From NCBI GenBank assembly GCA_934725525.1, contig CAKVCG010000103.1, positions 1-6,286 of the forward strand: a stretch of 6,286 nucleotides of DNA, written 5' to 3'. Position 1 is the stretch's first letter. Each line of letters begins with the position of its first letter. The position numbers and the translations under genes were made by a program. This DNA comes from an uncultured Brachyspira sp. GTDB taxonomy: Bacteria > Spirochaetota > Brachyspiria > Brachyspirales > Brachyspiraceae. This document shows positions 1,704-4,771 of this stretch, piece after piece. The notes under the pieces are model-generated. The model saw only the letters and a list, made by a program, of their open reading frames with translations, did no database searches and was not told the origin of the DNA.

Positions 1704-2936
1704 TCAATAATAAAAAATCTCTTTCCCGAAACCGCTATAAAAAATATTTTCATTCAAACCCGAATCGTATTTATAAACAGTATTTCCTCGTAAAATTGTC
1801 ATAATTACTCTTCCACCTCTTTTGAAGTTAATATAAGGACTCCAAGCCGCTTTCGTTATTATATCTTTTTCTATTATTTCCGATTCGTCATTTAAATCTA
1901 CTATAGTCAAATCGCCGTCATATCCTTCTTTCAAAATTCCTTTATTTTTTATGCCGAATATTTTAGCCGAATTTTCGCTCATAATTTTTGTTAATAATTT
2001 TAAATCTATCGTAGAATCTTTTACTTTTTTCAACATTAATTCGAGCGAATGTTCTACGGATGGAATTCCAAAAGTAAGTTTGTCAAGTTTTTCGGATAAT
2101 AAATGAGGCGCATGGTCTGTGCCAATAGTGTCGATAGTTCCGTCTTTTATCGCTTTCCATAATGCTTCGTTGTCACTTTTTTCTTTTAATTCTGGATTCA
2201 TTCTTAAAAGCGTTTTATTTTTTTCGTTAATATTTTCCGTATTCAAAAATAAATGGTGAGGAGTAGCTTCGCCGTAAATTTTCATTCCGCTGTCTTTCGC
2301 TCTTTTTAGAGAATCTATTTCGCTATATAAAGATAAATGACATAAATATAAAGTCGTTCCCGTTCTTTTTGCAATTTCAATCGCTTTATCAACCATTTTA
2401 CCTTCCGCATGAACGGATACGATTTTTGAAGCCGTAAATAATTTTTCCAATATTTTATCGTCTTCTATAAGCATATTTCCTGTGGAAACATTTAAAAAAA
2501 TTTTTGTAGACGCTACTTCGTTTTTAATTGACTTTATATCTTCGCTATTGTCAGTTTTGTTTCCACCGAAATGAAAACCGTAATCGACATAAGATTTTCC
2601 CGACATCATCGATTTTTTTTGAATAAGATTTTCTTTCGTTATCGTGTTTGGAATTGTATTTGGCATATCCAAAAAAGTTGTAATTCCGCCTCTCATAGCC
2701 GCCTTGCTTCCAGAATTAAAATCTTCTTTATGGTTAAGTCCAGGGTCTCTCATATGGGTATGCGGGTCTATTATTCCAGCGATAACATAATTATAATTTG
2801 CGTCTATTATTTTATTTCCAACTTCTTTATATTTTTCAAAATCGTTTTCCATATCTATTTTTTTTATTTTTTCATTTTCAATAATTATAGAAACCGGTTT
2901 TTGAGAATTTATAATTTTAACGTTTTTTATTATCAT
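1704..2936 (-). CDS. pyrC: Dihydroorotase (class I type)
   Basis: This enzyme closes N-carbamoyl-L-aspartate to dihydroorotate, step 3 of UMP synthesis. It is a metal-dependent amidohydrolase of 410 residues. Metal and substrate motifs appear in order: DPHTHMRDPG (His59, His61, Arg63), DMPNT (90-94), KIF with Lys145 as the probable carboxylated bridging lysine, followed by STGNML, then VHAEG (His176), CHLS (His200), GEATPHH (222-228) and TDHAPH with catalytic Asp274. The late loop reads GIPSVEHSLELML rather than the GxPGxET of many class I enzymes, and NPELK (247-251) replaces the usual NPPLR. Both resemble the Bacteroidetes-like branch as I remember it. Dihydroorotase is preferred over allantoinase or hydantoinase because pyrB is directly upstream. 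The ATG touches the pyrB stop (TAAATG), and its ribosome site AAGGA (2947-2951) lies inside pyrB, so translation is probably coupled. The stop is TGA. Confidence 0.93.
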   Translation of the reverse strand: MIIKNVKIINSQKPVSIIIENEKIKKIDMENDFEKYKEVGNKIIDANYNYVIAGIIDPHTHMRDPGLNHKEDFNSGSKAAMRGGITTFLDMPNTIPNTITKENLIQKKSMMSGKSYVDYGFHFGGNKTDNSEDIKSIKNEVASTKIFLNVSTGNMLIEDDKILEKLFTASKIVSVHAEGKMVDKAIEIAKRTGTTLYLCHLSLYSEIDSLKRAKDSGMKIYGEATPHHLFLNTENINEKNKTLLRMNPELKEKSDNEALWKAIKDGTIDTIGTDHAPHLLSEKLDKLTFGIPSVEHSLELMLKKVKDSTIDLKLLTKIMSENSAKIFGIKNKGILKEGYDGDLTIVDLNDESEIIEKDIITKAAWSPYINFKRGGRVIMTILRGNTVYKYDSGLNENIFYSGFGKEIFYY

Positions 2937-4013
2937 TTATTTTATTTCCTTATTGCAATAATAACAGAAATTTCCGTAATCTTTTTTAACTGTCTTATTC
3001 TTTGTTTCTTCAAAATGAGCGACACATTTTTTATTTTGACAAACTATATTTTTATTTTCAATTATTTCGTAATCCGCTTTCTCTTTCCTCACATTCGATT
3101 TTATTACTCCAGAGGCAACCGATAACATAGCCATTCTTATCGGAACTCCGTTTCTTGCCTGAATAAAATATTTTGCATATTTAGTATTATCCAAATCTAT
3201 ATTTATTTCGTCTACTCTCGGAAGGGGATGCATTATTATCATATTATCTTTACATTTTCCTTCAATATCTTTTTTTGACACACGGAATGCATGTTTAACT
3301 TTTTCGTATTCGTTTATATCGTCAAATCTTTCTCTCTGTATTCTTGTCATATATAAACAATCAATATCTCCTAATATACTTTCGTAATTATCCCCTATAT
3401 GATATTTAATTTTCGCTTTATCCAATTCTTTTAATATATGGTTGGGTATCTGTATTGATTCTGGAGCTATAAAATAAAATTCTCCGTCAAACATTTTCAA
3501 AGCGTTAGCCAATGAATGAACGGTTCTTCCGTATTTTAAATCCCCGACAAAAGCGATTTTTTTATTTTCTATATTTCCAAGTTCCTCTCTTATCGTATAT
3601 AAATCGAGCAAGGTTTGACTCGGATGTTCGTTAGCACCGTCTCCCGCGTTTATTATAGGACATCTTGTAACTTCTTCTGCAAATTTAGCCGCTCCGTCTA
3701 TATAATGTCTCATAACTATTACATCAGAATAAGCGGAAACCATTATAATAGTGTCTCTTAACGATTCTCCTTTTACGATTGAACTCATATTTGGATTGTC
3801 GAAACCCAATACATGACAGCCAAGTTTATAAGCCGCGGAAGTGAAAGATAATCTCGTTCTTGTCGAAGGCTCGAAGAATATGCTCGTTATTATTTTTCCG
3901 TCCATCATTTTTCTTCTTTTGTCTTCATTCATACAATCTAATTTTTTAGCCGCGTCAAGAATTTCAATAATCTCTTCTTTCGACATTTCTTTAATTCCTA
4001 TAATATTTCTCAT
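2937..4013 (-). CDS. pyrB: Aspartate carbamoyltransferase with fused PyrI-like zinc domain
   Basis: The enzyme joins carbamoyl phosphate and aspartate to form carbamoyl aspartate, step 2 of UMP synthesis. Residues 1 to about 305 are a complete catalytic chain: carbamoyl-phosphate loop FEPSTRTRLSF (47-57), Ser77 and Lys81 of the 80s loop, MRH (101-103), GDGANEHPSQTLLD (124-137, with His130 and Gln133), GDLKYGRTVHS, YMTRIQRER (221-229, with Arg224 and Gln226), and MHPLPRVDEI (261-270). A 50-residue tail follows with Cys325-x4-Cys330-VAHFE and Cys350-x2-Cys353-NKEI. It matches the zinc module of E. coli PyrI (CPNSNCISH...CKYCEKEF). No PyrI nucleotide-binding domain fits between the two parts. 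In class B enzymes that zinc module docks regulatory to catalytic chains, so here it probably has a structural or assembly role. The start is set by AAAAGGA at 4021-4027, 7 nt before ATG. It is first in a pyrB-pyrC unit behind an apparent attenuator. Confidence 0.95.
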   Translation of the reverse strand: MRNIIGIKEMSKEEIIEILDAAKKLDCMNEDKRRKMMDGKIITSIFFEPSTRTRLSFTSAAYKLGCHVLGFDNPNMSSIVKGESLRDTIIMVSAYSDVIVMRHYIDGAAKFAEEVTRCPIINAGDGANEHPSQTLLDLYTIREELGNIENKKIAFVGDLKYGRTVHSLANALKMFDGEFYFIAPESIQIPNHILKELDKAKIKYHIGDNYESILGDIDCLYMTRIQRERFDDINEYEKVKHAFRVSKKDIEGKCKDNMIIMHPLPRVDEINIDLDNTKYAKYFIQARNGVPIRMAMLSVASGVIKSNVRKEKADYEIIENKNIVCQNKKCVAHFEETKNKTVKKDYGNFCYYCNKEIK

Positions 4014-4031
4014 TTTAATATCCTTTTAATA

Positions 4032-4154
4032 TTATTTTGGCATAAAAATAGGGAATGAAACAGTTAAACCGTTTGCATTCCCTTTTAAGAATTTCAAATT
4101 CATAAAATCAGATAAATAAAAAATAATCTTATATTTTAAAAATACATTATTCAT
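4032..4154 (-). CDS. Candidate pyrB leader peptide (40 aa)
   Basis: A short ORF starts about 30 nt after the predicted transcription start. It runs 40 codons to a TAA at 4032-4034, ending 18 nt before the pyrB ATG. It begins MNNVFLKYKIIFYLSDF, includes FLKGNANGLTV across the hairpin, and ends PIFMPK. GGAA (4160-4163) lies 5 nt upstream of the ATG and could serve as a weak ribosome site; a further GGAA is at 4165-4168. An internal in-frame ATG at 4101-4103 could start a 23-residue version. From 4145 to 4101 the transcript has 26 U in 45 nt, including runs of five and six. The frame then reads through the entire terminator hairpin at 4050-4083. The peptide sequence probably does not matter; ribosome position would. 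I know of no homologous peptide. It could be a chance frame, though stops are frequent in sequence this AT-rich. Confidence 0.55.
   Translation of the reverse strand: MNNVFLKYKIIFYLSDFMNLKFLKGNANGLTVSFPIFMPK
4044..4083 (-). terminator. Attenuator-type intrinsic terminator in the pyrB leader
   Basis: On the minus strand, AGGGAATG pairs with CATTCCCT (4076-4083 with 4050-4057). After a single bulged base (4075), AAAC pairs with GTTT (4071-4074 with 4058-4061). This gives 12 bp around a 9-nt loop. Five T follow (4044-4048), one base past the stem. No gene ends here on either strand: it lies between a pyrB promoter and pyrB itself, with the upstream neighbour divergent. A terminator in that place is best explained as a conditional attenuator. 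The + strand also has TTTT after the stem (4083-4086), but no transcript is expected to end there. Confidence 0.75.
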
Positions 4155-4189
4155 TTTTATTCCGTTCCAATATTAATTTAATTTTATAA

Positions 4190-4218
4190 ATTATATAACA
4201 GTAATTTTAAAAAATCAA
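4190..4218 (-). promoter_or_regulatory. Predicted sigma-70-type promoter of pyrB
   Basis: On the minus strand, TTGATT (4213-4218) is separated by exactly 17 bp from a consensus TATAAT (4190-4195). Transcription would start near 4181-4184, giving a leader of about 170 nt before pyrB. AT-rich DNA yields many TATAAT-like matches, but the spacing, the near-consensus -35 box and the position ahead of the leader ORF support this one. Confidence 0.65.
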
Positions 4219-4315: not shown

Positions 4316-4771
4316 ATGGCGAAAACTATTAAATGTAAATCCTGCAAATCAATAAACGACAAATACGCTACAAAATGTAATTCCTGCGGCGCCGCTTTAT
4401 ATCCCGAAATTTCCCGTAAAAACGCCGAAATTGTGACGATAGTTTTGGATATTATTTTTGCCACTATTTATTTATTTGCAATATTTATCTTTATAAAAAA
4501 CGCAAACAATAACGAAACTCCGAAATATATTAATATTCTTCCCACCGCAAATTCAATTCCATATTTTATTATAATATTATTCTTTTTATGTTTTGCCGCG
4601 ACTAAAATACTTTATGTGTTAAATATATTTATAATGAAAAACGAACTTATACTAACGGTTAGAAGAGCGAGCATGTTTATAGAAGCGATTACGATGTTTC
4701 CGATACAAACTATACTCGCTTTATATTTTTATGAACCAGCCACAAATGAAAATAAAAAAGAAAAAAATTAA
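4316..4771 (+). CDS. Small zinc-ribbon membrane protein, function unknown
   Basis: The 151-residue product starts with a treble-clef or zinc-ribbon knuckle: Cys7-x2-Cys10 and Cys21-x2-Cys24, the second followed by Gly. It resembles the N-terminal 'zinc-ribbon' tags seen on many uncharacterised bacterial membrane proteins. Three hydrophobic segments follow at about 39-61, 81-106 and 118-138. A Lys/Glu/Asn-rich tail closes the protein. With the ribbon in the cytoplasm, three crossings would put the C-terminus outside. There is no signal peptide and no catalytic motif I recognise. The ATG is supported by GGAGA 7 nt upstream and by a promoter with a perfect TTGACA. It is transcribed divergently from pyrB and overlaps the last codon of the convergent TPR gene. 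Shared control with pyrB is possible but not shown. Confidence 0.85.
   Translation: MAKTIKCKSCKSINDKYATKCNSCGAALYPEISRKNAEIVTIVLDIIFATIYLFAIFIFIKNANNNETPKYINILPTANSIPYFIIILFFLCFAATKILYVLNIFIMKNELILTVRRASMFIEAITMFPIQTILALYFYEPATNENKKEKN

Follow-up and report, generated by a model that had tools for sequence, protein, structure and literature searches.

Attenuation at the pyrBI operon is a textbook case of transcription-translation coupling serving as a metabolite sensor, and it is known chiefly in enteric bacteria. Another closely related type of control is found in the PyrR-controlled pyr attenuators (RF00515), in which a terminator is likewise located before pyrimidine genes. For the leader ORF of Escherichia coli pyrBI (pyrL, NC_000913 b4246), excerpts of the published work describe that termination is prevented only if transcription and translation are coupled across PyrL (PMC5021804) and that the pyrL pause has been measured and is independent of a NusA-stabilised hairpin (PMC9291695). 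Furthermore, UTP-dependent reiterative initiation is reported at E. coli pyrBI in an excerpt of a third study (PMC6245113). Among the literature matches listed, no report of a pyr leader-peptide attenuator in Brachyspira or another spirochaete could be found.

The window, i.e., the whole stretch of 6,286 nucleotides analyzed here, originates from an uncultured Brachyspira sp. and carries a pyrB gene with a leader region. Judging from its sequence and from the leaders of related genomes, this region is probably a ribosome-coupled, UTP-sensing attenuator of the pyrBI type.

Genes and leader elements in the window

On the minus strand of the window, pyrB (2937..4013; TIGR00670, 373 bits against a cut-off of 237) encodes an aspartate carbamoyltransferase with a Cys4 tail and is directly adjacent to a gene for a pyrC-like dihydroorotase (1704..2936; TIGR00857, 290 bits against a cut-off of 279). 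As the two genes are neighbors with pyrB in first position, they likely form one operon. In the scan of genome contigs, the pyrB of the window showed 75–78% identity to seven Brachyspira loci, including those of B. innocens and B. alvinipulli, 71% identity to one uncultured Spirochaetes locus and 30–32% to two others. The Cys4 tail of PyrB (2937..3047, minus strand) bears a weak likeness to the metal-binding domain of PyrI (PF02748), with a score of 10.2 bits that lies under the cut-off of 23.4; beyond this tail, the remainder of PyrI was unmatched in the window PyrB. On the plus strand, an ORF of 151 codons (4316..4771) has a CKSCKS...CNSCG motif near its start, zinc-ribbon-like by eye, and hydrophobic stretches after this motif; a match to a Pfam family was not found for it.

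In front of pyrB, the original prediction had described a pyrBI-like series of elements on the minus strand, and these were found where it had put them. The series begins with a –35 box TTGATT (4213..4218), assigned by its match to the consensus only, and a –10 box TATAAT (4190..4195), which are separated by a spacer of 17 nt. A transcription start is predicted at AATTA (4179..4183), followed by the ribosome-site-like sequence GGAACGG (4162..4168) and the leader ORF of 40 codons (MNNVFLKYKIIFYLSDFMNLKFLKGNANGLTVSFPIFMPK, 4032..4154). The ORF is U-rich, as had been proposed, and the count of 26 U given for its first part had to be revised: the first 45 nt contain 24 U, and the richest 45 nt (4102..4146), which are the proposed pause region, contain 27 U. 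In the coding DNA of the window, 13 of 5,460 segments of 45 nt reach 26 T, and four reach 27.

The terminator hairpin (4050..4083) is located inside the ORF, with a stem that consists of 15 pairs with one bulge (–17.1 kcal/mol) instead of the 12 bp originally given. It is followed by T5 (4044..4048), the end of a full tract T-A-TTTTT. After the leader ORF come the ribosome-site-like sequence AAAAGGA of pyrB (4021..4027), again a consensus assignment only, and the pyrB start at 4013. A simple terminator scan missed the hairpin, presumably because of the bulge, and for the comparison of the 25 leaders described below it was placed by hand (at 4084 to 4050). The leader from 4190 to 4014 folds with a z of –3.42, and none of 200 shuffles was equally stable. 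For a candidate pause hairpin of the window leader (GAATTTGAAATTC), an obvious counterpart was missing by eye in several relatives.

Every testable sequence feature of the pyrBI type was found in the pyrB leader. It shares the order of the elements with E. coli pyrBI, and in both cases an antiterminator is not needed. The distance from the leader ATG to the hairpin is 87 nt in E. coli pyrL and 70 nt in the window, and the ORF ends 48 nt and 53 nt past the hairpin start, respectively. In contrast to E. coli, the Brachyspira pyrB leaders are more U-rich (T fraction of 0.43–0.53, against 0.34 for E. coli pyrL), the ORF can end inside the hairpin, most genomes possess a PyrR-family gene and leaders are also present at carA and pyrK. 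A similarity between the leader peptide of Brachyspira and PyrL, which belong to different phyla, was not seen by eye in the unaligned sequences.

In the proposed mechanism, a transcript from the predicted start would be translated across the leader ORF. At low UTP, RNA polymerase would likely slow down in the U-rich stretch of this ORF, and the trailing ribosome would then keep the terminator hairpin from folding, which would allow readthrough into pyrB. With plentiful UTP, the polymerase would move ahead of the ribosome, leaving the hairpin free to form, and transcripts would end at T5, before pyrB and pyrC.

Conservation of the leader across Brachyspira

The leader set comprised 24 loci from 24 Brachyspira genomes and the window, resulting in 25 different sequences. 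Among the 26 Brachyspira genomes, 24 contain a close pyrB, and G010 and G019 have only distant transcarbamylase matches. The same order of elements was observed in all 25 leaders, so that the layout is more than a product of chance. Each leader has one ATG with a GG 5–14 nt upstream in the searched stretch, which opens an ORF of 31 to 64 codons, and the intrinsic-terminator hairpin starts 68–98 nt past this ATG. Compared with dinucleotide shuffles, the hairpin is more stable by at least 5.68 standard deviations in each of the 25 leaders, and the best 45 nt contain 23–28 T.

The leader ATG was picked by the upstream GG and not by the openness of the frame. In frame 0, none of the 25 leaders has a stop codon before or within the first 6 nt of the hairpin, compared with 75 and 49 stops in the other two frames, which are open in none and in one of the leaders, respectively; a shared ATGA contributes to the closure of the +1 frame. 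In dinucleotide shuffles, the ORF was open in 3.5–11.2% of the cases per leader (0.035–0.112), and as the leaders are related sequences, they do not count as 25 independent trials. Relatives that keep the hairpin and interrupt the ORF had been named beforehand as evidence against a ribosome-coupled attenuator, and none of the 25 leaders closes its ORF before the hairpin.

The ORF runs past the whole hairpin in 19 leaders and stops within it in six, namely in the 5′ arm in L013 and further in in L014, L015, L018, L022, and L023. On an ORF that ends inside the hairpin, a ribosome would still sit on the hairpin. In L012 and L024, the leader ORF overlaps the ATG of pyrB by four bases. Depending on the species, each of the three frames is used to read the hairpin, and the pyrB tree, in which 10 of the 22 inner branches are open, requires four or more changes of frame. 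This means that the openness into the hairpin is kept, whereas the peptide encoded by the hairpin is not.

For the first 15 codons, a pN/pS of 0.22 was determined in frame 0, and the other two frames gave 0.56 and 1.05. This count covers 20 of the 25 leaders; L018, L021–L023, and L030 were left out, since their peptide differs. The first 15 codons thus evolve as coding sequence, and the low ratio suggests that the leader is translated. An alignment of related leaders had been expected to reveal a conserved U-rich ORF through the hairpin with a variable peptide. This was the case for the ORF, which enters the hairpin in all 25 leaders, and for the hairpin peptide, but not for the first 15 codons. 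As these are conserved as a peptide, the leader peptide is not entirely free, which is more than pure coupling needs.

The pairs of the stem change on both sides at several positions among the 25 leaders (e.g., G-C to A-T and T-A to C-G); pairs beyond the bulge were counted in order, and the register is approximate in bulged hairpins. With a hairpin, a T tract and stem covariation, the region between promoter and pyrB has the features of an intrinsic terminator and is predicted to act as one.

Predicted transcription start

In all 25 leaders, a –10-like hexamer is followed by six bases and AATT. The sequence is AATTT in 23 leaders and AATTA in two, the window and L018, so that a run of at least three T at the first transcribed bases is absent from the window. 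In the 400 kb control (see below), N6-AATTT follows 36 of 4,350 –10-like hexamers, which are not known promoters. The AATTT of the 23 leaders is also found at the start of E. coli pyrBI (TATAAT-N7-AATTTG), one of the cases of reiterative initiation in E. coli besides carAB. The differences are the gap from the –10 box, which amounts to 6 nt in Brachyspira and 7 nt in E. coli, and the missing AATTT in the window. By analogy with E. coli pyrBI, the AATTT start could add UTP-sensitive stuttering to these 23 leaders; such reiterative initiation is expected in most members of the genus, but not in the window.

Inspection by eye of the promoter regions (4218 to 4190 in the window and the corresponding regions of its relatives) revealed a T-rich stretch directly after the –35 box in many of the relatives, as well as a TGA before the –10 box, corresponding to an extended –10. 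Elements similar to both were seen by eye in the pyrK upstream regions.

Leaders of carA and pyrK

Of the 22 carA loci over the cut-off, 21 were used and L068 was left out, as the start pattern was not found; L062 and L065 look identical. In all 21 extracted loci an ORF reaches a terminator hairpin. It ends 7–16 nt into the hairpin in nine loci and past the hairpin in twelve, and the frame differs between species. The carA leader ATG was defined as the first one 30–105 nt upstream with an ORF reaching the hairpin, and therefore the openness results partly from this choice and the count is less independent than that for pyrB. By eye, the ATG is located at the same position in 19 of the 21 loci, and a clear ribosome site was not seen in any of them. 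The T fraction of the carA leaders ranges from 0.30 to 0.53. Upstream of carA (L052–L073), a short C/G-capped inverted repeat precedes the hairpin in 19 of 21 loci and may represent a pause hairpin.

The pyrE gene (TIGR00336) is located in a cluster after pyrK- and pyrD-like genes (named by eye), and for this reason the leader was sought at pyrK. Stretches upstream of pyrK were obtained from 20 of the 26 genomes, of which 19 were used, L105 being without a pyrK start. A hairpin was detected in 15 of these and is missing in L116, L119, L120, and L123. In the 15 leaders with a hairpin, a short U-rich ORF enters it in five cases and ends 6–24 nt before it in ten. As this ORF (L104–L123) begins about 8 nt after a –10-like box by eye, its mRNA may be almost without a 5′ untranslated region. 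Taken together, carA is a good second case of the pyrB leader design, and pyrK a weaker third.

The control consisted of 20 stretches of 20 kb (400 kb) from two genomes, which contain 327 ORFs with a length of 90 codons or more. Here, nine ORF-terminator pairs were found, in two of which the hairpin is well clear of the upstream ORF. A small ORF entering a hairpin was detected once (L143), and none of the 327 ORFs has such an arrangement with a ribosome-like site. Due to the missing ribosome-like site and a shorter ORF ending just upstream (by eye), L143 probably represents a normal terminator at the end of a gene. With this scanner, 25 of 25 pyrB, 21 of 21 carA and 14 of 19 pyrK upstream regions are recovered, and four of the five pyrK regions that it misses are those without a leader hairpin. 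Because the design is nearly absent from the control, a general habit of the genus is ruled out. Its presence before carA and, more loosely, before most of the pyrK genes examined likely makes it a feature of a pyrimidine regulon and not an oddity of a single gene.

Antiterminators and other RNA elements

The absence of a competing antiterminator, originally noted for the window, holds true across the 25 pyrB leaders. When the ORF region was paired with the 5′ arm of the hairpin, the best duplexes did not exceed those of shuffled sequences (mean z of +0.19, from –1.23 to +1.18) and reached –3.9 to –7.8 kcal/mol, compared with –13.2 to –22.5 kcal/mol for the hairpins. Ahead of the hairpin, the leader is hardly more structured than expected by chance (mean z of –1.38, from –2.92 to 0.17). 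The carA leaders lean slightly toward an antiterminator, with a mean z of –1.15 and duplexes of up to –8.8 kcal/mol, which are weaker than their hairpins (–14.3 to –20.4 kcal/mol); by eye, an AATCTT/AAGATT pair was noticed as a possible antiterminator duplex. A riboswitch or another RNA of the Rfam database was rejected for the window, in which no match was found up to an E of 10.

By sequence and comparison, the pyrB leader thus has an ORF, a conserved openness of this ORF into the hairpin, coding-like evolution, a covarying hairpin and no antiterminator above chance.

Other explanations for the pyrB leader

A PyrR-family gene was found over the cut-off in 22 of the 26 Brachyspira genomes, and consequently a PyrR-type switch needed to be tested and not assumed away. 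In such a switch, a PyrR-family protein would bind the leader RNA at high UMP or UTP and favor the terminator, and the leader ORF would be incidental. A terminator before pyrimidine genes and, in most genomes, a PyrR-family protein are what Brachyspira has in common with the PyrR-controlled pyr attenuators. In addition, a PyrR-like ORF (by eye) is located directly upstream of pyrB in L046 and L049, which belong to members of the class outside the genus, and an excerpt of a study on Leptospira reports an RNA like a PyrR-binding site (E of 1.5e-4) downstream of hypothetical genes (PMC3953431). However, the Brachyspira leaders differ from these attenuators in the ORF running into the hairpin and in the lack of an RF00515 match: none of the 26 genomes gave one over the cut-off among the 93 of 183–412 first-look candidates that were scored per genome, and a single weak match (30 bits against 54) lies at the junction of pta- and arcA-like genes (by eye). 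The window is likewise devoid of such a match, the weakly folding stretch before the hairpin offers no antiterminator partner and a PyrR-type switch leaves the conservation of the leader ORF unexplained. We therefore consider this explanation unlikely.

In five genomes from other members of the class, RF00515 was also not found over the cut-off among the scored candidates, and a leader ORF with a terminator was not seen in the 420 nt upstream of pyrB. As the genomes with a PyrR-like ORF beside pyrB are among those without RF00515, the model may miss spirochaete sites. At the one locus that was read in Brachyspira (L041, 859–1389), the PyrR-family gene is located away from pyrB and adjoins a FliL-like ORF (by eye). 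PyrR control of Brachyspira pyrB is unsupported, with a low probability remaining.

The terminator might also be a general sensor of the growth rate or of how many ribosomes are available, without UTP-specific pausing, as an ORF running into a terminator would give a coupling effect anyway, and the carA leaders have the same layout with less U in most of them. Against this stand the U-richness of the window leader, which with 27 U in 45 nt is far above that of coding DNA, the T-rich 45 nt stretches of all 25 pyrB leaders and the location of the design at pyrimidine genes, contrasted with none of the 327 control ORFs when a ribosome-like site is included. An attenuator of this general kind is improbable in our view. 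A nascent-peptide or codon sensor, in which the conserved start (approximately M-K/N-N-I-F-L-K-Y-K-I-I-F-Y-L) stalls the ribosome on a metabolite or a charged tRNA, would agree with the low pN/pS of the first 15 codons in 20 leaders but is very improbable, since the peptide differs in the five leaders outside that count, a codon run for one pyrimidine-tied amino acid is not seen by eye and upstream stalling would, given the absence of an antiterminator, favor termination instead of preventing it.

The evidence supports the ribosome-coupled interpretation that the original prediction had put forward, with UTP as the proposed signal.

Meaning for Brachyspira

If the pyrB leader acts as such a UTP-sensing attenuator, this would be evidence that the ribosomes of spirochaetes stay close enough behind the polymerase to govern termination, and finding a leader ORF, a terminator and an AATTT start together would represent a striking convergence. 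The 25 leaders, natural variants that differ in the frame of the hairpin and in the stop of the ORF, offer a ready comparison. For a wider interpretation we see the chances as evenly balanced: Brachyspira may have built, independently of the enterics, a whole regulon of ribosome-coupled UTP sensors, with leader ORFs that run in varying frames into terminators before pyrBC, carA, and pyrK-pyrD-pyrFE and a UTP-sensitive AATTT start at pyrB in most species, and may have kept its PyrR-family gene, which is no longer located beside pyrB.
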